Positions 1 to 13,004 of a DNA stretch of 54,596 nucleotides are shown in pieces (position 1 is the first letter of the stretch; each line of letters opens with the position of its first letter). This DNA is from a virus. The translations under genes and the position numbers were made by a program. The notes under the pieces are model-generated. The model had not been told where the DNA came from and searched no databases. It saw only the letters and a program-made list of their open reading frames with translations. The stretch lies in IMG/VR virus record IMGVR_UViG_3300031951_000209, positions 1 through 54,596 of that record; one strand, written 5' to 3'.

Positions 1-510
1 AGATTGTTTAAATGTTATTTCACCACCAGCATAATCATCATTTAAATACAACAAAACAGATAAAACTCTTGTACTTACGCCCTGATCTTGATGTGGTGGT
101 AAATGTCCAGACTTATCATATCTTAATAAACTTGTTGTTTGTTCTTTTGCTTTAACATTTTTTTGTGCAAATGGATATAGTTTTGTTGAATAATGAAACA
201 ATGCCTGATCAATTGATCCATGTATTCTATAAGATATATTTCTTTGCTCATCTCTAAAAGGATCTTCTTCTAATATTTGCCCCATAGTTGGAACAAATTT
301 TTGCCAACAAAAGATTTCTTTTGATTTAGAACTTTCATTTATCCAAGGCGTCCACTCTTGAACAATAGTTTTAGATTTTATTTGATCATCACTATTTAAA
401 AATCTTTCATCTAGGTCTTCTATGTTTCTTATAATTTGGTCTGTATTTTTTACAATATTCTTATAGTATACTAACCCCAAATCTAAAACTTCATGATTGA
501 TTGAACTCAC
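1..510 (-). CDS. 2OG-Fe(II) oxygenase, prolyl-4-hydroxylase-like (3' end off window)
   Basis: The visible 170 codons end at the left window edge, so the C-terminus is missing. The core carries the P4H-type iron motif PPHQDQG (HxD), followed by a strand rich in Leu/Val and the segment YLNDDYAGGEITF, which is typical of P4Hc-domain dioxygenases; the distal His and the 2OG-binding Arg would lie beyond the edge. I choose the GTG at 510 as start: AGAGAGG lies about 7 nt upstream, whereas the ATG at 494 in the overlapping frame reads into a stop after three codons. The gene overlaps the preceding oxygenase by 20 nt, so the two are probably translated together. The family uses Fe(II), O2 and 2-oxoglutarate to hydroxylate a protein or other substrate; the substrate here is unknown. 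Confidence 0.75.
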   Translation of the reverse strand, partial: MSSINHEVLDLGLVYYKNIVKNTDQIIRNIEDLDERFLNSDDQIKSKTIVQEWTPWINESSKSKEIFCWQKFVPTMGQILEEDPFRDEQRNISYRIHGSIDQALFHYSTKLYPFAQKNVKAKEQTTSLLRYDKSGHLPPHQDQGVSTRVLSVLLYLNDDYAGGEITFKQS

Positions 511-1117
511 GTTCTGCAGCCTCTCTTTCTAATGGATATTCTACGGCTTGCCAAGTTGGATTCTTATCTTCCCCCAAAAAGTCAGGGTCTGCATGTTCTG
601 GAAGTGATGTGTGCATATATAATGCAGTATATCTATGTCCTTCAGTTACTTCAGTAATACCGTGAATATATTCTGTACCAGCACTTGGAAAAAATACTGC
701 AGAATATTTTTTAGGTTGATAAACAAAATCTTGATTAGGAAAAAATATCTTACCACCTTGATATTCTGGAGTTTCGTTTAAATAAATTATTGTACTAAAT
801 TCTATAAATGGTTCTGGGCCTTGAGCATCTAGGTGTAAACCACCCCTTGTTCCTTTGATCCAGTGAGATCCAAAACCTTTAAAAACATATATTGGATTAA
901 CAAATCCATTGTAAGACCTATGTATTTCATTAGCCTTGTTGCCATACTTAATCATAATATCCATAACAGTTTTGTTGTATGGTAATGATGTACCGCCGTA
1001 TCTTTTGCTATAGTATTCTGGATATGGATTAACTTCTGATGGGTTGTGTTGCTCCCTTATTAGGGTTTCTGCATCCTCTTTGGTTATAAAGTTGTCTATT
1101 ACTGCAATTCTATGCAT
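491..1117 (-). CDS. 2OG-Fe(II) oxygenase, prolyl-4-hydroxylase-like
   Basis: The 208-residue protein has a complete double-stranded beta-helix signature: iron ligands His95 and Asp97 (HLDAQG), distal His152 (YIHGIT) and a 2OG-carboxylate-binding Arg162 (GHRYT). The stretch IIYLNETPEYQGGKIFF is typical of P4Hc/PF13640-like enzymes. It lies downstream of an extended -10 promoter at 1138-1146 and has AGGA 7 nt before the ATG. It overlaps the next oxygenase by 20 nt and follows a glycosyltransferase gene. Family knowledge supports hydroxylation coupled to 2-oxoglutarate decarboxylation in the cytoplasm; proline in a virion or secreted protein is an inferred substrate only. Confidence 0.88.
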   Translation of the reverse strand: MHRIAVIDNFITKEDAETLIREQHNPSEVNPYPEYYSKRYGGTSLPYNKTVMDIMIKYGNKANEIHRSYNGFVNPIYVFKGFGSHWIKGTRGGLHLDAQGPEPFIEFSTIIYLNETPEYQGGKIFFPNQDFVYQPKKYSAVFFPSAGTEYIHGITEVTEGHRYTALYMHTSLPEHADPDFLGEDKNPTWQAVEYPLEREAAEREFNQS

Positions 1118-1137
1118 GCTATTCCTGTCTTTTTTCT

Positions 1138-1146
1138 ATTATACCA
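1138..1146 (-). promoter_or_regulatory. Extended -10 promoter (TGG-TATAAT)
   Basis: On the minus strand this reads TGGTATAAT, a perfect extended -10 element, in the gap between the glycosyltransferase stop codon and the oxygenase start at 1117. No convincing -35 box is present. The predicted start point lies about 7 nt downstream and leaves a short leader containing the AGGA ribosome site. It would transcribe the two P4H-like genes separately from the glycosyltransferase. Confidence 0.55.
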
Positions 1147-2070
1147 TTAATCAATATAGTTTATCTTGGTCATAAACTTTTTTGAATCTATATCAGTAAA
1201 TAAAGAGACGTCAGGATCATACTCTACATCATTGAGTGGAAAGGGTATGGGATTTAACTCATCAAGATTAACCCTATGCTTTCCTAGAAAAGAAACAACA
1301 TCTCCCATTAAAGGCTCACTAATGTCTTCATATTTATTTTTTTGTTTTTTAAATAAGTCAATCATTTCATTATAGTTATGATACTTAGAAAATGTTGTAT
1401 ATAGATATTCTATTGTGTCTGCTCCATCTTTTTTATAAAAACTATCTGGACAACTATATACCTTTATATGGTGAGCATAATACAAGATGGATAAAGTTTC
1501 TTCTTCACCATAATATTTCATATACCAAGGATATCCAATTTGTTGAAGTGTTGAGGTATGTCCAAAAATTAAATCTCTACTAACAAAGTATGTTCTATCT
1601 ATATCATTAGTTATCTCTTCTTCTTTTTTTAAATAAAACAATCCATCATTACTTAAAGTTATTTTGTTTTTACCGCTAATTATAGACTGTTTGTCTTTAA
1701 TATTTTGTAGCAAATATTCGTCCCAGTCTTGATTTAAGTATATGTTGTCTGATAATATTAATGTATAAGAATACTGTGATTGCTTGAGCATATCATTTTT
1801 GTACTGACATGGACTCTTTATTTTATCCCAAACAACATGACTATAGTTGGCATCTTTTAAATTTTCAAAATATTCCCACTTTTCTAAAGCATTTTCATTA
1901 TAAAAGCCAAACTGACTCCATTTTGTTAAAGGACTTTGATCAAAAATCTTAACAAATATTGTATTTTTTTTAGAAGATTTATCTAACAAATTAGCAACAA
2001 CATTCTTTAAGTTTTTATTTTTATAAGAATAAATTATTACATTTATTGGATTTGGTAAGTTATTCGTCAT
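1147..2070 (-). CDS. Glycosyltransferase, GT60/Skp1 hydroxyproline GlcNAc-transferase-like
   Basis: The 307-residue protein has a GT-A style N-terminus (INVIIYSYKN, residues 9-18) followed by landmarks in the order seen in PF11397 (GlcNAc; Skp1-hydroxyproline N-acetylglucosaminyltransferase) enzymes: a KSPCQYKNDML block (85-95), LILSDNIYLNQDWDEYL at the position of the usual LQIDSHMRF..WD block, and PWYMKYYGEEE (181-191) matching the FFGEE motif. The metal-binding DxD is replaced by S107-D108-N109, so activity is not certain. The gene lies directly upstream of two prolyl-hydroxylase-like genes and overlaps the preceding gene by 11 nt. The family sugar donor is UDP-GlcNAc; the acceptor here is unknown. 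A more general GT2-type transferase is the main alternative. Confidence 0.6.
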   Translation of the reverse strand: MTNNLPNPINVIIYSYKNKNLKNVVANLLDKSSKKNTIFVKIFDQSPLTKWSQFGFYNENALEKWEYFENLKDANYSHVVWDKIKSPCQYKNDMLKQSQYSYTLILSDNIYLNQDWDEYLLQNIKDKQSIISGKNKITLSNDGLFYLKKEEEITNDIDRTYFVSRDLIFGHTSTLQQIGYPWYMKYYGEEETLSILYYAHHIKVYSCPDSFYKKDGADTIEYLYTTFSKYHNYNEMIDLFKKQKNKYEDISEPLMGDVVSFLGKHRVNLDELNPIPFPLNDVEYDPDVSLFTDIDSKKFMTKINYID

Positions 2071-2824
2071 AAAAGTCTTCTTTTAAACCTTTACCCCTAA
2101 ATAGTTTTTTTCTCCAAGCAGTTTTTTTATAATAGCCATATAGTAGCGATCTTCTATTTTCTGCCTTAAATTCATGCTCATCAATTTTTTCTTGATTTGT
2201 ATCTATTTCCATTTCCCAATTATCTCTTTTAAAAGGAACTATTTGAAAAAGTGGAGTACCCTTCTTAATGATTCCTTGAAAACCTCTCTTTAAAAAAAAT
2301 GCTGTAAAAACTGGTAGTCCCCAAATATCCGATTCAACAATACCAGACATTGTAAGAAATGGTAAATCATATCTATTCATTGGATGTGTTATAAGTACAG
2401 AGTAACCTGGTGGAGTTTCATAATACCAATTCATTCTCCATCCATAATGTATGGGATGACAATTATCTGGAACTGGAAGATCTATTGTTGGTCTTTTATC
2501 CATAATCATTATATTTTTATCCCAAGACAATGTTGGCTTTCCATTCTTATCTAATTCTACTAGCAAGTCATCTTCTAATAAATAATAATATCCAGCAGTT
2601 AGTGAATCAAAAAAGGGCATACACATTTTTGTTGCAACTCTAGCACCATCGCCACCTATATTGTTTACTGGAGAAAGATATTTTTCATCATTCCAGATTT
2701 CATGTTTTGCTAAAGACTTATACCATTCTGGTACATGTTTTACAGCAGGTTCTGGTGGAGTAAATATATTTTGATAGTTTGGTCCCCCACCTGGAGTAAA
2801 AGATATTTTTAATGGATCTTTCAT
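2060..2824 (-). CDS. Conserved phage protein of unknown function (DUF6065-like), copy 1
   Basis: I do not recognise an enzymatic function. The 254-residue protein is a clear paralog of the next gene: shared blocks are PEPAVKHVPEWYK, KMCMPFFDSLTAGYYY, TPPGYSVLITHPMNRYDLPF, GIVESD and GFQGIIKKGTPLFQIVPFKR. These blocks resemble what I recall of the DUF6065 family, which is common in aquatic phages; the assignment is from memory. No signal peptide or membrane segment is visible. It overlaps the upstream paralog by one base (ATGA-type junction) and the glycosyltransferase by 11 nt, so all are probably co-transcribed with the accessory glycosylation/hydroxylation genes. Confidence 0.7.
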   Translation of the reverse strand: MKDPLKISFTPGGGPNYQNIFTPPEPAVKHVPEWYKSLAKHEIWNDEKYLSPVNNIGGDGARVATKMCMPFFDSLTAGYYYLLEDDLLVELDKNGKPTLSWDKNIMIMDKRPTIDLPVPDNCHPIHYGWRMNWYYETPPGYSVLITHPMNRYDLPFLTMSGIVESDIWGLPVFTAFFLKRGFQGIIKKGTPLFQIVPFKRDNWEMEIDTNQEKIDEHEFKAENRRSLLYGYYKKTAWRKKLFRGKGLKEDFYDE

Positions 2825-3552
2825 TATTTATATTCTTTTTTTTGTCTAAACTTTTCTTTATAAGAATTTCTAAAACTACTTCTAACTAAAAGTCTTTGTC
2901 TTTCAATTTCACCCTTTCCTTCAGAGTGAGAAACAAACTCTGATTCCCAACTCTCTCTTTTAAAAGGAATTGCTTGAATTAGAGGCGTTCCTTGTTTAAT
3001 TATTCCTTCAAAACCTTTTTCAATATGCATTGAAAGATGTCCGTCTGAAGCAAATTTATCTGTATCAACTATTGCTTCAAACATTTGAAATGGAACTGGA
3101 TCTCTATGAAATGGATGAGTAAACAGTGTGCTATATCCTTTTGGAGTCATCATTGCCCAAAATGGTAGTATTCTAAATATTTGTTTATGATATCTTTCTA
3201 AGTTAACTGGATAGTTAGATACTTGCTCTGATGTATGAGTTGCAATCATATCATTTCCAAGAAACTTTAATTCATTAGGAACACTCCAAGTTATCTTTTC
3301 TGGATTAGTAGCATTAATATATATATCCATTGGAACTTTAAAAATATATCCAGCAGTTATCAAATCAAATATTGGCATACATCTTTTTATTGTGCTACTC
3401 ATACCGCCTTTAGATATATACTCTTTAAACTCATCACCAATAAATCCTGGTTGTTGTTTATACCAATCTGGCATAGATTTAATTGATGGTTCTGGCTTTG
3501 GTACAAAAACCTCTGTTTTATCAGAAAAAGGATAAAAACTAACCTTGTTCAT
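2824..3552 (-). CDS. Conserved phage protein of unknown function (DUF6065-like), copy 2
   Basis: This 242-residue protein is the paralog of the gene at 2060-2824. Conserved blocks occur in the same order: PEPSIKSMPDWYK, KRCMPIFDLITAGY, TPKGYSTLFTHPFHRDPVPF, IVDTD and GFEGIIKQGTPLIQAIPFKRESW. The copies have clearly diverged, so the duplication is not recent. The C-terminal 35 residues are rich in Lys/Arg. It overlaps the upstream gene by 14 nt. Function unknown; the all-beta, Pro/Gly-turn-rich composition would fit a jelly-roll fold, but that is only an impression. Confidence 0.7.
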   Translation of the reverse strand: MNKVSFYPFSDKTEVFVPKPEPSIKSMPDWYKQQPGFIGDEFKEYISKGGMSSTIKRCMPIFDLITAGYIFKVPMDIYINATNPEKITWSVPNELKFLGNDMIATHTSEQVSNYPVNLERYHKQIFRILPFWAMMTPKGYSTLFTHPFHRDPVPFQMFEAIVDTDKFASDGHLSMHIEKGFEGIIKQGTPLIQAIPFKRESWESEFVSHSEGKGEIERQRLLVRSSFRNSYKEKFRQKKEYK

Positions 3553-4255
3553 AAAATCTCCTAATCTCTTTTATCATTATATCATCTGCCCTAAAAACCA
3601 TATTATACATTGGTGAAAGCCTTTTTACCTTACCATACTCGTTATCAATCATATGATCACCTATTTTCTTAAATTGAAAATGAACAAATGGTGGCTCAAT
3701 CTGATCTGTATTATTTAATATTTTTTTAAAGTTTATTGTATCTTCTAATATTAAAAAGGGTGAGTTGTCTGGCTGTTTAATATTAACAGATATATTATCA
3801 TCAATAATCCAGGGTACATAAAATCTAAAAGTTTGATTAAAACATGTTGCAGGATCACCAAAGTCTTTCCTATCTGATAGGTAGTACTGTCTTATCCAGG
3901 GACGATCTAAATTCCACATAATCCTTTCACTATATGGTTCATCTCTTTCCATTGTATTAAGAATCTCAGGACTACGAACTAAGAATATTTCAGCATGATT
4001 AGTTTGTTGAAGAGTAACTATATTATTATTAATACTTATTAATTTGGGTTTAGGATATAACTTATTAACATAGAGATTAATTGGTTTGATAACATGGTTT
4101 GTATATTTTTCTTTAATGCCTTCAGTGTAACTAAGCCATCTTGACGGAACCCTAGACCTATGATTAATCCATAAAAATGATTCAGACCTTGATTTATGCC
4201 ATATAAAAAAGTCTTCTCTTAATTCAGAGATTGACTCATTACTGCTCTGCTTCAT
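3539..4255 (-). CDS. Hypothetical protein
   Basis: The 238-residue protein is not recognised. It has no signal peptide or membrane span. Its C-terminal third (PFVHFQFKKIGDHMIDNEYG, then KVKRLSPMYNMVFRADD) looks compact and conserved, and the N-terminus is charged and Ser-rich. It starts with ATG inside the 3' end of the PD-(D/E)XK-like gene (17 nt overlap) and overlaps the DUF6065-like copy by 14 nt, so it belongs to the same leftward operon of accessory genes. Confidence 0.6.
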   Translation of the reverse strand: MKQSSNESISELREDFFIWHKSRSESFLWINHRSRVPSRWLSYTEGIKEKYTNHVIKPINLYVNKLYPKPKLISINNNIVTLQQTNHAEIFLVRSPEILNTMERDEPYSERIMWNLDRPWIRQYYLSDRKDFGDPATCFNQTFRFYVPWIIDDNISVNIKQPDNSPFLILEDTINFKKILNNTDQIEPPFVHFQFKKIGDHMIDNEYGKVKRLSPMYNMVFRADDIMIKEIRRFYEQG

Positions 4256-4982: not shown

Positions 4983-5843
4983 TTACTGTAAAACGTTTAC
5001 CATTTTATCAGTAACAGTTAATCCTTTTTGCCACTGTGTTGCAACAGCAATCGTAGCAGAGGAAGTAGTTTGTGGTATTGACCCAAAAAATGCCGATTGA
5101 TAATTCCATTTACCTTCTGGCAATACTCCAAAATAGTCTGTGTTAGTATCGTGATTTCCTACAGGAAAAGTAGATACTGATACAGTATCAGTAATACATG
5201 CTGGATAGTTTACTGGTTTTTTATTAGAATCATTTCCAGTAGATATAAATACTGGAATACCCTTAGACTTTAAACTAGAAACAGTTGTTCTAATTAATGG
5301 ATCAACAACTTTAATATTAACCAAACCAGTTGGAGATAATCTACATTCTCCTGGCTTAGACATGTTCCCACTTAAGTTATAAGAAAAAGAAACTGCAGAA
5401 ACAGTTGATGAATTTGCATCAACCCATTTTAATGCTGCAAGAAAATCATTTCCGTTTAAAATTCCAACTGCACCTTTGTTGTTAACTGTAGCAGATCTCA
5501 ACAAAATTAAAGGTACCTCTGGATTATTTCTGCGAGCAACTTCAGCCATAGCGGTGCCATGATTTACTGCATCAGAAACTCTGGAAGATGGCTTTGCAGT
5601 ATTTACACACTTATCTGTAGCAATACAAACAATAGTTGTGTTCGTAACTCTTGTATCAAAATAACTATCAATGATTACAATTGGCTTACTATTAATTACA
5701 GGTGTTGGACTCGCAACCACAGGTGTTGGATTTGATGTAACAACTGGTGTTGGGACAACTACAGGTGTTGGACTCTCAACTGCATTTGCTGGAATTGCTA
5801 GTACTGAAAATAAAACAGATAAAACAATAAACATTTTTTTCAT
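4983..5843 (-). CDS. Secreted subtilisin-like (S8) serine protease
   Basis: The 286-residue protein begins with a clear Sec signal peptide (KK, hydrophobic core, cleavage near PANA at 18-21) and then a Pro-rich linker with repeated PTPVV/PTPVI units (25-50). The subtilase triad follows: Asp59 in IVIIDSYFD, His95 in NHGTAMAEV, and a Ser at 261 in TTSSATIAVA, with the oxyanion Asn204 in STGNDSN. The linker replaces the usual propeptide and the domain is short for S8. Such a secreted protease in a phage could act on the host envelope during lysis or on a virion/surface protein. It follows a 58-residue gene by a TAATG overlap and is probably driven by the near-consensus promoter at 6026-6054. Confidence 0.85.
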   Translation of the reverse strand: MKKMFIVLSVLFSVLAIPANAVESPTPVVVPTPVVTSNPTPVVASPTPVINSKPIVIIDSYFDTRVTNTTIVCIATDKCVNTAKPSSRVSDAVNHGTAMAEVARRNNPEVPLILLRSATVNNKGAVGILNGNDFLAALKWVDANSSTVSAVSFSYNLSGNMSKPGECRLSPTGLVNIKVVDPLIRTTVSSLKSKGIPVFISTGNDSNKKPVNYPACITDTVSVSTFPVGNHDTNTDYFGVLPEGKWNYQSAFFGSIPQTTSSATIAVATQWQKGLTVTDKMVNVLQ

Positions 5844-6025: not shown

Positions 6026-6054
6026 AGTATATACCTAGATGCTTACCGTGTCAA
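6026..6054 (-). promoter_or_regulatory. Near-consensus sigma70-type promoter for the 58-aa gene and subtilase
   Basis: On the minus strand: TTGACA (6049-6054), a 17-nt spacer, then TATACT (6026-6031), then six bases and an ATG at 6019. The -35 is a perfect consensus match and lies within the 3' end of the Ntn-hydrolase gene. The expected start point falls on or next to the ATG, predicting a leaderless transcript that may also carry the subtilase and the tRNAs. Confidence 0.75.
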
Positions 6055-6556
6055 TAGGACCAGTGCAAGATGTAGAAAAATTAATAGCAGCACCGACTGC
6101 TTGAATAACTCTATTTCTTCCGTTTTTTTGTTTTTGAGTAGAATATAATGATCCAAGTGCAAATTCTGTTGCAGAACCCATTGCCAAATAATCTAAATCA
6201 TATTCTGTTAGTGACATATCAACAGCACTATGCTCAAATATTCTTCCCTTAACAGCAATTATCATTCCAAAATCTGAATCTTTAGAAACATCAACCCACC
6301 ACTTATCATAAAAATCTCTAAGTGATATTAAAAACTTTGTATACATAAATTTATCTAAGTTACCTTCTGGAACAGGTGGTTTAAAGTTTAGTCTTATTCT
6401 TTCACCATCCATAGTGCCAGCATATCCTATTAAATATTGACCAGTTTTCCAAACCTTCGGTGCTTTTAAAGTAAGCATACTGTTATCATCTGATGCACCT
6501 CTGTCACCAGCCATATAAATTTTATTATCTTGTCTAACTACTGCTATGCACGTCAA
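6035..6556 (-). CDS. Proteasome beta/HslV-like Ntn hydrolase
   Basis: With the TTG at 6556 as start (AAAGAGG at 6563-6569, 6 nt upstream), the 173-residue protein begins Met-Thr-Cys-Ile. After Met removal Thr1 is N-terminal, Asp17 lies in AGDRG and Lys33 in LKAPKV: exactly the Thr1/Asp17/Lys33 spacing of proteasome beta subunits and HslV. Later blocks (LIGYAGTMDG, YLAMGSATEFALGSLY) are also typical. Its length matches HslV (about 175). An upstream ATG at 6595 would add 13 residues before the Thr and lies within the promoter, so I reject it. No HslU or proteasome ATPase gene is visible. A role in protein turnover or virion maturation is inference. Confidence 0.85.
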   Translation of the reverse strand: MTCIAVVRQDNKIYMAGDRGASDDNSMLTLKAPKVWKTGQYLIGYAGTMDGERIRLNFKPPVPEGNLDKFMYTKFLISLRDFYDKWWVDVSKDSDFGMIIAVKGRIFEHSAVDMSLTEYDLDYLAMGSATEFALGSLYSTQKQKNGRNRVIQAVGAAINFSTSCTGPIDTVSI

Positions 6557-6585
6557 AGTAGGCCTCTTTAATATAGTGTTACTAA

Positions 6586-6614
6586 AGTATACCACCTATC
6601 ATTTTTATAGTCAA
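6586..6614 (-). promoter_or_regulatory. Near-consensus promoter for the Ntn-hydrolase gene
   Basis: Minus strand TTGACT (6609-6614), 17-nt spacer, TATACT (6586-6591), with TGG just before the -10 (extended -10 as well). It leads into a leader of about 20 nt containing the AAAGAGG ribosome site and the TTG start at 6556. Its -35 lies between the -10 and upstream part of the divergent promoter at 6617-6625, so polymerase binding to the two should be mutually exclusive. Confidence 0.75.
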
Positions 6615-6616
6615 CA

Positions 6617-6625
6617 TGGTATACT
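6617..6625 (+). promoter_or_regulatory. Extended -10 promoter for the plus-strand methyltransferase
   Basis: TGGTATACT ends 7 nt before the ATG at 6633. There is no ribosome site between promoter and ATG, and no clear -35. Together these predict a leaderless mRNA. This is the only promoter found facing right, and it overlaps the leftward promoter at 6586-6614. Confidence 0.6.
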
Positions 6626-6632
6626 ACTATAT

Positions 6633-7316
6633 ATGGCTGGATTATTGACCCTGGGATCTGTACATATTGGTAACATTTTAGATGTATCTCCTAGGACAAT
6701 TAGAAGTATTGTTGAGCATGACGTAATTGCCGTAGAAAGCCTTAAAAAATTTAACAAACTATTGTCTGATTTAGAAATTGAGACAAATGCACATATTATA
6801 GAAATACCAAGTTGTGAAGAAATAAATGCAATTAATAATATAGTTCAAATATTATTAAATAATAAAAATGTATTAATACTATCTGATCAGGGAAATGCTG
6901 GTTTTCATGATCCAGGCAGTGGCTATGCCAATGTTGCACTAATGCACAATATAAAAGTAACCACCATCCCTGGACCTAACTCAGTAATAACTTCACTTGT
7001 TGTTTCAGGTATGGCACATGGTGGTTTTATATATGGTTGCTACCCTAAAGATAGTAATGAGAACAAAAAATTTCTTAATAAGTTTATAGATATTGATTAT
7101 CCAATAGTATTCTTATGTGTTCCAAGTAAAGTTGAGCAAGTCTTAAATGATACCCTGGAAGTTTTTGGTGAAGACACACATTGTATTTATGCTCAAGATC
7201 TTACAATGTCAACTGAAACAATTTTTAGATGTACAGTAAAAGAAATGCTTTTAAAATATTATAATAACGAACTCAACAGAGAATCCGTTATTATAATAAA
7301 TAGAACTGCTAATTAG
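6633..7316 (+). CDS. RsmI-like SAM-dependent methyltransferase (tetrapyrrole methylase fold)
   Basis: From the ATG at 6633 the 227-residue protein starts LLTLGSVHIGNILDVSPRTI, aligned with the VGTPIGNLxDxTxRA N-terminus of RsmI (16S rRNA C1402 2'-O-methyltransferase). It also has LILSDQGNAGFHDPGSGYA, matching the SDAGTPxISDPG SAM-site block, and IPGPNSVITSLVVSG, matching the PGPSA block. It lacks the C-terminal HTH-like part of full RsmI (about 285 residues). An in-frame ATG at 6546 would add 29 residues without homology. It is the sole plus-strand gene and ends 8 nt inside the convergent holin-like gene. Ribosome modification is the family role; another substrate is possible. Confidence 0.78.
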   Translation: MAGLLTLGSVHIGNILDVSPRTIRSIVEHDVIAVESLKKFNKLLSDLEIETNAHIIEIPSCEEINAINNIVQILLNNKNVLILSDQGNAGFHDPGSGYANVALMHNIKVTTIPGPNSVITSLVVSGMAHGGFIYGCYPKDSNENKKFLNKFIDIDYPIVFLCVPSKVEQVLNDTLEVFGEDTHCIYAQDLTMSTETIFRCTVKEMLLKYYNNELNRESVIIINRTAN

Positions 7317-7605: not shown

Positions 7606-8028
7606 TTATTCTTCTCCTCCTTCCCTTATTCCCATGGTAATTAACCATAAGAACAAAACCAGTATGATTGAATACCCAACTATAGTTTTAGCACTACCTT
7701 CAAGAACAAGCCATGCTGCGAACATACCTAGTAATGTCCACAATTGATTTAGTGTTTCAATAAATGCTTTTACTAGCCATGCCCAAAACAATGTTATTAA
7801 TATCCATACTTTTTTGCATATAAATACAATTGCATTCTTTATAGAGTTAACTATCCATGCAACCACTTGATATGCTTCTTTTACTATCTTCGAAACAAGA
7901 TTAAGAACATATTTGATTACCGCCCAAACCTTGCTTAATACAAACTTAACTAGGTTTATTGGTAACATGACTACGAACTTAACTGCTTTGAAGATAAACT
8001 TAAAAGGTTTTAATATTGCCTTTATCAT
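7606..8028 (-). CDS. Membrane-associated protein of unknown function, lysis candidate
   Basis: The 140-residue protein is very rich in Val/Ile/Phe/Trp with regularly spaced Lys: its first 80 residues (IKAILKPFKFIFKAVKF and onwards) look like repeated amphipathic helices that would lie on a membrane, followed by two probable transmembrane helices at about 70-90 and 97-130 and an acidic REGGEE end. It ends directly before the holin-like gene and has AAGGAGG upstream of its ATG. It could be a second holin, a pinholin or a membrane anchor; I cannot choose. Confidence 0.55.
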   Translation of the reverse strand: MIKAILKPFKFIFKAVKFVVMLPINLVKFVLSKVWAVIKYVLNLVSKIVKEAYQVVAWIVNSIKNAIVFICKKVWILITLFWAWLVKAFIETLNQLWTLLGMFAAWLVLEGSAKTIVGYSIILVLFLWLITMGIREGGEE

Positions 8029-9602
8029 TTTATCCTCCTTATATTTCTTTTGATTTTAACCTTTGGTCTTCTCTTTATTTTTATTTTTTTCTTAGGCTTG
8101 ACCTTTGGTTTTCTTCTTGCTTCTCCACCAGATGAGGCCTCAAATTCATTTCTTCTTTGAGGATCTGAACCCTTACCGCTTGGTCCTGAGCCACCTGGTC
8201 CTGAACCACTTGGTGCAGATGGTGCACTTGGTGGAATTGATGTTACTGCAGCCATTGTTGCAATTTGACTTGCTACAACTGCTGCAACAACAACATCTTG
8301 TGAATCTTCTCTTTCTTCTTCTGTCATGTCAGCACCCAATTGACCAAGTGCTTCTATAACTTGGCCAGGGTCTGACAGTAACTCTCCTACTAGGGCTGCA
8401 GGATCTGCCAATTGTTCAAATATAACAACAACGCCTGCTTCTAAAACAACACCTTCTTTATATTCAATTTCTTGATTAGGATCTAATTCTTCTAAAAATT
8501 CTATTAATTGTTCAGTATTTAATTCTTCAACTAAATCTGCTACTGGCATTGCTTCATCTACTGCATAATTTTCTTGTAATAAATCTGCAATGTTTGATAA
8601 CTGTTCAGTAGAAATTTCTTCATTGTTAACCAATAAATCATCAATTGCATTATTGACTTGTTCCTCAACTGGTATAATTTCTTCTGAAGGAGTTGGTTCT
8701 TGTGAAGGTTCGATTACAGATTCTGGTTGTGGCTCTTCTGTCACTTCTGGTTCTGGTTCCTGTGTCACTACTGGTTCTGGTTCGACAATTGGCTCAGGGG
8801 TTTGAGTTGGTTGAACTGGATCAGGATCTTGAGTCTGAGTTGGACTAGGTTCAGGTGTTGGAGTTGGGGTGGGTGTAGGAGTTATGGTTTCCGTAGGTGT
8901 AGGCGTTGGGGTTGGAGTAGGTGTTGGGGTTGGAGTAGGTGTTGGGGTTGGAGTAGGTGTTGGGGTTGCTGTAGGACTTGGTGTTGGACTTGGAGCAGGT
9001 GGCTGAGTAATAGTTTGAACACTTAATGGTTGAATAGGGCCATTTTGTGTGTATCTAGCACCATATCTAGCGTTAGCAGGTGCATTAGCACTTACTTCAT
9101 AAGTTGGTGTCCATGTGTAATTTATTGGATTTACTTCTGCTAACATTCTTATATAAATTGGATTTCCAGAACTCTGTCCCCATACCATTACCTTCCAATC
9201 TACACATATAGAAGTTGCCGTAGATCCATATCTAACATATAAATTATTTCCATAACCCCATCCTGGACTCCATCCACCTGCTGCACTATTTGGAAATGCA
9301 TGATAATCAAAAGATCCAATTGATATAGATGGGGTTGCAGGGTAATCCCAAAATGTATAATCTCCTGCACCAAATGTAATAGTTCCTTTTGGACTTACAT
9401 AAATATTGTTTGTGTAAACTGTGTCTCCCCATTTAAGAGGGGTATTCAAGTTCATTAAAAAGGCTTGATCTCCACCGTTTACCTGATAGGTATCACAAGG
9501 TGCTGCCTCTGCATGAGCCTGCTGTGGCGTGCAGGAAAGAAGTAGTATTGTTGCTACTACAAAGACAAAGATTGCTCTGCGAAGAGTCCTAAAAGCGTTA
9601 AT
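8025..9602 (-). CDS. Secreted Pro-Thr-repeat protein with basic tail (AUU start proposed)
   Basis: I extend this gene upstream from the first ATG (9455) to an ATT at 9602, giving 525 residues: the frame is open there, encodes a convincing signal peptide (RTLRR, a 14-residue hydrophobic core, LLLSC lipobox-like site, then AHA), has no ATG/GTG/TTG before 9455, is closed by a stop directly upstream of the ATT, and has GGGGGT 9 nt before it. After the signal come a beta-rich domain (about 50-195), a Pro-Thr dipeptide tract (201-256), a Pro/Glu-rich segment, acidic helical repeats (EELDPNQEIE and similar) and a C-terminus of about 30 residues made almost wholly of Lys/Arg/Ile/Val. The layout suggests a cell-wall or surface protein; function unknown. 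Confidence 0.7.
   Translation of the reverse strand: MNAFRTLRRAIFVFVVATILLLSCTPQQAHAEAAPCDTYQVNGGDQAFLMNLNTPLKWGDTVYTNNIYVSPKGTITFGAGDYTFWDYPATPSISIGSFDYHAFPNSAAGGWSPGWGYGNNLYVRYGSTATSICVDWKVMVWGQSSGNPIYIRMLAEVNPINYTWTPTYEVSANAPANARYGARYTQNGPIQPLSVQTITQPPAPSPTPSPTATPTPTPTPTPTPTPTPTPTPTPTPTETITPTPTPTPTPEPSPTQTQDPDPVQPTQTPEPIVEPEPVVTQEPEPEVTEEPQPESVIEPSQEPTPSEEIIPVEEQVNNAIDDLLVNNEEISTEQLSNIADLLQENYAVDEAMPVADLVEELNTEQLIEFLEELDPNQEIEYKEGVVLEAGVVVIFEQLADPAALVGELLSDPGQVIEALGQLGADMTEEEREDSQDVVVAAVVASQIATMAAVTSIPPSAPSAPSGSGPGGSGPSGKGSDPQRRNEFEASSGGEARRKPKVKPKKKIKIKRRPKVKIKRNIRRIK
8899..8970. repeat. 18-bp tandem repeat, about 4 copies, encoding Pro-Thr
   Basis: The unit GTAGGTGTTGGGGTTGGA occurs twice exactly (8917-8934, 8935-8952) and with 1-2 changes on each side (8899-8916, 8953-8970). 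On the coding strand each unit gives three Pro-Thr pairs. The plus strand is rich in GG/GGGG runs. Copy number is likely to vary by slippage. Confidence 0.85.
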
Positions 9603-11433: not shown

Positions 11434-11956
11434 GGACAACTGTAACCACTTCGCTTTCTTTGGCAATACTTGAAAGTCGTCTCATGATTTCATCACGAAC
11501 TTGTGGATACTCAGAAGCAACATCTTTTAATATGTTCATAAGAACTTCTTGTTTTCTTTCTATCTGAACCATTTCTTCTGCCAATTCCTTGTTTTCTAAA
11601 AGACCTGCTTTTTGTAACATATCTATTCTTCTAGATTCAATATCTAATACAAGTTTAATACCCTGACTTTTAGCATTAAGGTTGGCTGTAGTAGTTGCAT
11701 CTTCAATAACTTCATATGCTTTTGTTATTAATTTACTATAATGTGTATCAGCAGCAACTAAGGCTTCCTTTGCTCTAGCACGAATAGCATCATTAGCGGA
11801 AGCCATAACCTTCCACTCATTAATTAAACTAACTACTTGTTGTCTTGGTATTGCAAGTTGCTTAGATATCCTTGTAGGATCGCTTCCTTTTAAATATTCT
11901 TCAACAACTTTATTTACCTGATCTAAATGCTGAACTAGGTCTTGCTCAGTTGACAT
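11423..11956 (-). CDS. terS: Terminase small subunit (putative)
   Basis: The 177-residue protein has an N-terminal helix-turn-helix (GSDPTRISKQLAIPRQQVV, about 23-41) and then long helices with Glu/Lys/Leu periodicity suited to oligomerisation, the usual small terminase layout. It lies directly upstream of terL. I choose the ATG at 11956: AAAGGA is about 7 nt upstream, and the longer frame to 12040 only covers the end of the SGNH-like gene. It should recognise the packaging site and regulate TerL. Confidence 0.75.
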   Translation of the reverse strand: MSTEQDLVQHLDQVNKVVEEYLKGSDPTRISKQLAIPRQQVVSLINEWKVMASANDAIRARAKEALVAADTHYSKLITKAYEVIEDATTTANLNAKSQGIKLVLDIESRRIDMLQKAGLLENKELAEEMVQIERKQEVLMNILKDVASEYPQVRDEIMRRLSSIAKESEVVTVVHDV

Positions 11957-13004
11957 CAGTTTTTCCTTTATATATGTTATACAACATTTTAGCCCAAACA
12001 TAGTGAAACGCTGTGCCGTAATGTCTGCCATCTCTGGCAATCATAGTATACTTATCGTCTTTGTGACTTTCTGTATAGTTAAATACTCCCTCTTCAATTT
12101 CTTGCATTTGTTCTATATCTGTAGTAACAATATAATTATCTAAATTACATAGTCTAAAGAATGCATCTGTTCCTCTAACATAGGAAAACAAATACAATTT
12201 TATATTGTTTGATTTGCAATATACTTCTAAAAACATTAGATATTGATACATATAGATATACAAAGTATGAACAAATACTGACAACGTAGTATCCTGCTTT
12301 ACAATAGAGTGTCTATAGTTGTCATTTAGTGCATAGAATGTATCTCCTGGTCCCATAGGTTTATCAAATTCTGCCGTACTGTCTGAATTTAATGCATAGA
12401 ACCTATTTAAATCTGGCAAATCTAAAAATATTTCATCTGGATTGCCATACTTATCTATATACTTAAAGGTACTTGCAACAATATCAAATATACTTTTTCC
12501 TGGAGTGCCAATGTTGTAATAACCAGAGACCTTTTCATTTTCCGATATCATCTTATATAATAAATAAGACCAAGTCTCATTTGTATATAGTCCTTGTCCA
12601 TAAGTTACTGAACAACCATTAAAAAGAATATGCTTTCCTTCATGATCTTTTTTAAATTCATCTGCTCTAAAACCCTGTCTGTTAGGAACAAAATCATCTT
12701 CTGGAAAATCAACCCATAGTTGACTATCATCTAATTTTTTAGAATCTCTGTACAATCCTTCAATTAAATTATTCCATCCAGTCAACTGTCTTGAAAATGG
12801 AAGTTCTACCTTTTCGTTTTGTAGCAAAGTTTTATAACTTTGTTTAGCAGTTTTTGTAAACTCACTATTGAGGGTTTCATATAAATTAACCCCATCTTGT
12901 TTTGGTAAAGGTTGATAATTTCTATTTTTTTCATTATAATTAAATAGATTATCGTACATTTCTTCTTCTGTTCTTATTTCATTAGGGTCAAACTGATCTT
13001 TCAT
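11946..13004 (-). CDS. SGNH/GDSL-like hydrolase
   Basis: The 352-residue protein carries the SGNH blocks in order: block I as GCSVTYGQG (130-138, Ser132 nucleophile), an NIGTPGKS block (164-171) and a C-terminal DGRHYG (325-330) with the Asp/His pair. The first 120 residues are an extra, charged domain. No signal peptide is visible. SGNH family members remove acyl groups from sugars or lipids or act as transferases; the position before the terminase genes is unusual. It could modify a virion sugar or be a structural esterase. The 3' end overlaps the small terminase start by 11 nt. Confidence 0.65.
   Translation of the reverse strand: MKDQFDPNEIRTEEEMYDNLFNYNEKNRNYQPLPKQDGVNLYETLNSEFTKTAKQSYKTLLQNEKVELPFSRQLTGWNNLIEGLYRDSKKLDDSQLWVDFPEDDFVPNRQGFRADEFKKDHEGKHILFNGCSVTYGQGLYTNETWSYLLYKMISENEKVSGYYNIGTPGKSIFDIVASTFKYIDKYGNPDEIFLDLPDLNRFYALNSDSTAEFDKPMGPGDTFYALNDNYRHSIVKQDTTLSVFVHTLYIYMYQYLMFLEVYCKSNNIKLYLFSYVRGTDAFFRLCNLDNYIVTTDIEQMQEIEEGVFNYTESHKDDKYTMIARDGRHYGTAFHYVWAKMLYNIYKGKTDVN

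Follow-up and report, generated by a model that had tools for sequence, protein, structure and literature searches.

Does a phage hydroxylate a protein and then attach a sugar to the new hydroxyl? The question is raised by the left end of a 54.6 kb virus fragment (the whole stretch of 54,596 nucleotides analyzed here, referred to as the window), where genes for two 2OG-Fe(II) oxygenases lie beside a glycosyltransferase gene on the minus strand. 2OG oxygenases with unknown substrates are common in phages. In Dictyostelium and Toxoplasma, the Skp1 PhyA-Gnt1 system consists of a prolyl 4-hydroxylase and a GT60 transferase (PMC6939170). In mimivirus, L230 (a lysyl hydroxylase-glucosyltransferase) and R699 account for the hydroxylation of collagen-like proteins and for transfer to the new hydroxyl (PMC9614988, PMC9546862). 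A survey of viral P4H genes terms their use cryptic (PMC9301287). The original prediction for this locus was a hydroxyproline-glycosylation system of which no described phage version was known, and our literature text searches, which covered open-access papers, likewise found none.

Our analysis indicates that the genes belong to a new conserved cassette carried by uncultured phages related to Streptomyces phages, the purpose of which is probably hydroxylation plus glycosylation. The usual gene order in cassette contigs is F3-DUF6065-DUF6065-GT-P4Ha-P4Hb, where GT is the transferase and P4Ha and P4Hb are the oxygenases (Table 1). For DUF6065, we found no solved relative and, in the open-access literature, no paper. 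F3 aligns to DUF6065 with an hhalign E of 2e-4 and a probability of 47. Separately, conserved GIVDTD and GTPxxQ stretches in the DUF6065/phrog_7084 family are reminiscent of dUTPase motifs, and in haloarchaeal HF1-like viruses (L082, L083) relatives of this family are located near adhesin and tail-fibre genes.

Table 1. Cassette genes and originally proposed acceptor proteins; positions are those of the window unless a contig is named.
Feature	Position	Strand	Length	Remark
P4Hb, 2OG-Fe(II) oxygenase (PF13640)	1..510	-		Cut by window edge
P4Hb, complete copy (PF13640)	L001 7561-8235		224 aa	
P4Ha, 2OG-Fe(II) oxygenase (PF13640)	491..1117	-	208 aa	Complete in window
GT, predicted GT-A fold transferase of GT60/GT27 type	1147..2070	-	307 aa	S107-D108-N109 at DxH position
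DUF6065-like protein (phrog_7084), second copy	2060..2824	-		
DUF6065-like protein (phrog_7084), first copy	2824..3552	-		
F3, conserved cassette protein	3539..4255	-		Possible distant DUF6065 paralogue
Secreted-looking protein, PTPV tract	4983..5843	-		Acceptor candidate of the original prediction
Secreted-looking protein, (TP)n tract	8025..9602	-		Acceptor candidate of the original prediction

A scan for relatives of the transferase recovered 62 viral contigs at 27-100% identity; none was found in annotated phages, with distant members included as queries, or in bacterial and archaeal genomes. Transferase and oxygenase occur together with hardly an exception, rather than one without the other at chance frequency. 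Among transferase-seeded contigs with at least 1.8 kb of downstream sequence, an oxygenase is present there in 54 of 54 (the P4Ha subfamily in 53), and DUF6065 is present in all 57 of the contigs with enough upstream sequence. When the search is made from the P4Ha side, the transferase lies directly upstream in 73 of 77 contigs, and in the other four a methyltransferase gene replaces the transferase and DUF6065 genes. This replacement, with the methyltransferase ahead of the oxygenase pair, is seen in L162, L178, L195 (where the methyltransferase is PF13578), L197, and L212, the last of which came from the P4Hb search; in L195, L197, and L212 a carbamoyltransferase follows. All 173 transferase loci listed (duplicates included; ~140 distinct contigs by name) have a downstream oxygenase. 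The linkage counts are of contigs rather than independent events, as related contigs share ancestry; at 80% identity, the transferase-seeded contigs form 21 clusters and the whole set 69. The cassette order is kept down to ~27% transferase identity, while other flanking genes differ. The adjacency of transferase and oxygenases is not due to chance. It is also asymmetric: the transferase is always accompanied by an oxygenase, whereas the oxygenase pair sometimes occurs without the transferase, as would be expected if the transferase needs the hydroxylated product.

The description of the oxygenases as prolyl-4-hydroxylase-like holds up. Both exceed the PF13640 cut-off of 27 bits (P4Ha, 33.4 bits; complete P4Hb from contig L001, 66.6 bits), and prolyl hydroxylases are their nearest solved relatives: PDB profile searches match P4Ha to prolyl 3-hydroxylase 1 (1.1e-6) and the Bacillus P4H 3itq (7.5e-5), and P4Hb to the same two proteins and to EGLN1. 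Because PKHD-type hydroxylases also match in these searches, we leave the substrate unfixed. The HxD...H...R pattern is invariant across every aligned sequence in both subfamilies (H95-D97-H152-R162 in P4Ha and H140-D142-H192-R202 in P4Hb); judged by these residues, the active sites, comprising the iron ligands and the basic 2OG-binding residue, are intact. A defence role was considered and rejected, PADLOC having returned only a generic 2OG model match. As minor observations, copies of a protein with the pattern HDH...FHGYY...H...R, 2OG-like by eye, flank the transferase in one clade (L036, L041, L051-L053, L059-L062), and the one copy tested has no Pfam match over cut-off; in L045 (7749-9812) and L050 (6545-8608), a 687-aa protein that by eye resembles catalase-peroxidase (KatG) comes right after P4Ha.

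The assignment of the transferase to the GT60 family (PF11397) had been based on three blocks, KSPCQYKND, LSDN..WDEYL, and YYGEEE, which do occur in the named order within the protein. The HMM comparison gave a divided answer: the window transferase alone has no meaningful match in Pfam (PF11397 included), PHROGs, NCBIfam, or, by sequence, the PDB, but its relatives do match PF11397. PF11397 is found in 6 of 12 members and, at loose thresholds, in 21 of 34 (best 5e-6; GT2 in 2 of 34) and in 19 of 40 of a more diverse set (best 3.2e-8; GT2 in 8 of 40), and it is the commonest Pfam family matched across members. One relative, L036, exceeds the cut-off (27.8 vs 21 bits). GT2 (PF00535) matches are fewer and weaker, with none for the window transferase.

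Structural comparison points the same way. A first structure prediction, based on 12 close homologues, reached a pLDDT of 51 and was replaced by an AlphaFold2 model from 34 diverse sequences (pLDDT 82, pTM 0.85). The best PDB matches to this model, in a comparison that contained no solved GT60, are the GT27 polypeptide GalNAc-transferases (E 2e-12), from which the window protein differs in its low identity (12-16%), its shorter length, and the replacement of DxH by S-D-N. In a viral fold library, an uncharacterised phage protein with 84% identity ranks first, and ranks 2-3 are uncultured-phage proteins named ‘Glycosyltransferase, GlcNAc’ (PF11397; BFVD/UniProt; phrog_24687), which have a similar fold and whose names are database names only; we found no pairing of phage PF11397 proteins with an oxygenase described in open-access papers. 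GT60 enzymes are related to GT27 (PMC3188802, PMC8724618). With PF11397 commoner than GT2 and the predicted fold nearest GT27, the results support placing the transferase, within the GT-A fold, close to the polypeptide HexNAc-transferases of GT60/GT27, and the concern that it might group with ordinary GT2 enzymes is not borne out. We keep it outside GT60 because it falls short of the PF11397 score cut-off and lacks an intact DxH motif. As GT60 also includes mucin-type (Ser/Thr) glycosylation enzymes (PMC8724618), family alone is no proof of hydroxyproline.

A stronger PF11397 candidate appears when the sequence is followed past the left edge of the window. Contig L001 is 99.96% identical to the first 8,070 window bases and extends beyond them. 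There it encodes P4Hb in full, a pair of proteins that look SGNH-like by eye, a carbamoyltransferase (PF16861, 1e-51), a GFO/IDH/MocA oxidoreductase, and a PF11397 protein that scores 55.6 bits against a cut-off of 21, also matches phrog_24687, and has D-A-H intact. On profile score and motif, the most convincing PF11397 enzyme of the window virus is this second transferase, just outside the window; further contigs, among them L173 (64.7 bits), also have an enzyme of this type close to the cassette. The window transferase aligns to this neighbor with an hhalign probability of 95.7 (E 1e-8), compared with 0.2 for an unrelated control, and S107-D108-N109 falls on D-A-H in the profile alignment. 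The canonical DxH metal motif is thus lost in the window transferase, and family members differ at this site (S-D-N, S-D-D, G-D-D, D-G-D, T-P-G, K-Q-H), with T-P-G in one branch leaving no acidic residue. Asp at position 108 is retained by many members. Catalysis by the window transferase is plausible but not assured.

The reading we favor, with somewhat less than even confidence, is that a phage protein is hydroxylated and then glycosylated, in sequence. P4Ha and P4Hb would hydroxylate a side chain, most probably that of proline, in a protein that the phage itself encodes, for example a virion fibre; the transferase would add a sugar to the hydroxyl newly made by the oxygenases; and neighboring enzymes may extend or carbamoylate that sugar. 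The observed part of this scheme is the gene content, the conserved order, the families, the predicted fold, and the intact oxygenase active sites; we infer the protein target, the proline residue, the action of the transferase on the oxygenase-made hydroxyl, and the identity of the sugar. Protein decoration is favored by the GT27 fold match, the prevalence of PF11397, the prolyl-hydroxylase matches in the PDB, and the asymmetry between transferase and oxygenases, as well as by one clade in which genes for a collagen-like fibre that exceeds the PF01391 and PF13884 cut-offs and for a laminin-G protein come right behind the oxygenase pair or are separated from it by one SDR-like gene. It is weakened by the missing DxH ligands of the window transferase, by Pro-Thr acceptor candidates that do not track the cassette, and by the three of six cassette proteins that have no known function. 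A more specific version, in which tandem hydroxylases and a GT60/GT27-type transferase carry out hydroxyproline glycosylation of a virion protein and the second PF11397 enzyme and the carbamoyltransferase elaborate the glycan, we consider clearly unlikely. Hydroxyproline-GlcNAc in particular is weakened by the loss of DxH, by GT60/GT27 relatives that also act on Ser/Thr, by the five methyltransferase contigs, and by the poor conservation of the Pro-Thr proteins.

These Pro-Thr and PTPV proteins had been proposed as the acceptors. Their tracts are real, but conservation of the cassette does not extend to these proteins, which are no more than putative acceptors. Proteins with (TP)n tracts occur in three of five sequences (the window, G005, and G031); of the four long cassette contigs, G013 and G039 lack them in the available sequence. 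The PTPV protein is seen only in close relatives (9 loci). Collagen-like stretches are present in 4/4 long cassette contigs; we dropped them as specific acceptor evidence, as a short one also exists in the cassette-free Streptomyces phage Wakanda.

The main rival, which we place on the unlikely side, is that the target of the cassette is a small molecule or a glycan of the surface or virion. Here, the 2OG enzymes would hydroxylate a sugar or lipid part, glycosyltransferases would extend the glycan, and the carbamoyltransferase, methyltransferase, and SGNH-like enzymes would decorate it. The genes around the cassette suit such a product: a NodU-type carbamoyltransferase is found in 25 of 37 cassette loci, with an SGNH-like family, oxidoreductases of the GFO/IDH/MocA and SDR types, and additional glycosyltransferases close by. 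A methyltransferase and a carbamoyltransferase in one cluster would fit a glycan or small molecule as well, and the former takes the place of the transferase in the five contigs above. In the unrelated jumbo Xanthomonas phage XacN1 (L108 5989-9706), a PF11397-like transferase also adjoins a carbamoyltransferase, echoing L001. However, the closest fold is that of a polypeptide transferase, the closest solved oxygenases are prolyl hydroxylases, and the cassette is not accompanied by a complete, conserved glycan pathway.

It is quite improbable, in our view, that the transferase places HexNAc on Ser/Thr, for example in Thr-Pro tracts, with the hydroxylases serving other proteins separately. GT27 enzymes initiate mucin-type glycosylation and GT60 has mucin-type members (PMC8724618), and the (TP)n proteins would offer acceptors where they occur; their patchy distribution argues against this, and the strict linkage of transferase and oxygenases would be left without explanation. 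DNA hypermodification, in which the oxygenases would hydroxylate a base and the transferase or carbamoyltransferase would cap it, has a precedent in a phage-associated carbamoyltransferase that acts on 5-hydroxymethylcytosine (PMC8670742), and the DUF6065 family shows a weak dUTPase (PF00692) signal (1 of 22 members, E 0.075). We consider it very improbable: the TET/JBP (PF12851) match, at 20.6 bits, is far under the cut-off of 34.9, the TET-like enzyme 5cg8 is matched only at E 0.076 in the PDB profile search, and PF00303 (thymidylate synthase / dCMP hydroxymethylase type) is found in 0 of 35 cassette records, which is weak evidence as these are mostly fragments. Equally remote is a non-catalytic transferase that only binds and recruits substrate for the oxygenases, which would account for a drifting DxH site beside invariant oxygenase sites but not for the retention of Asp 108 by many members or for the GEEE block (YYGEEE), H231, W81-D82, and W116-D117, all invariant in the 34-sequence set.

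Protein hydroxylation followed by glycosylation, our preferred reading, resembles known systems in outline, and we claim membership in neither of the two. As in Skp1 PhyA-Gnt1, a prolyl-hydroxylase-type 2OG enzyme would work with a putative GT60-like transferase; unlike in that system, the phage genes form one cassette with DUF6065 and the DxH of the window transferase is not intact. In the case of L230/R699, mimivirus likewise encodes a 2OG hydroxylase together with a transferase, but that system involves lysine instead of proline, relatives of GLT25D1/PLOD, a single protein, and a eukaryotic virus. Through ~140 viral contigs, the oxygenase pair is tied to a peptide-transferase-like enzyme, which narrows its role to a few reactions that can be tested. 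If the favored reading is true, coupled hydroxylation and glycosylation, known in eukaryotes and giant viruses, would extend to phages, with possible effects on fibre stability and receptor binding.

The DNA polymerase of the window virus shares 55% identity with those of Streptomyces phages, BillNye and Wakanda (Stanwilliamsviridae) among them, and its capsid protease is also nearest to Streptomyces phages. As its close relative G005 encodes a WhiB factor that exceeds the Pfam cut-off, the host is likely actinobacterial. Wakanda, searched for the cassette families, has none of them. Other genes of the window, identified by eye, include a proteasome/HslV-type N-terminal-Thr hydrolase-like protein (6035-6595), whose family occurs at 21 of the cassette loci, an RsmI/tetrapyrrole-type methylase-like protein on the plus strand (6546-7316), and a member of an SGNH-like family (11946-13004), several copies of which also lie downstream of the cassette in relatives.
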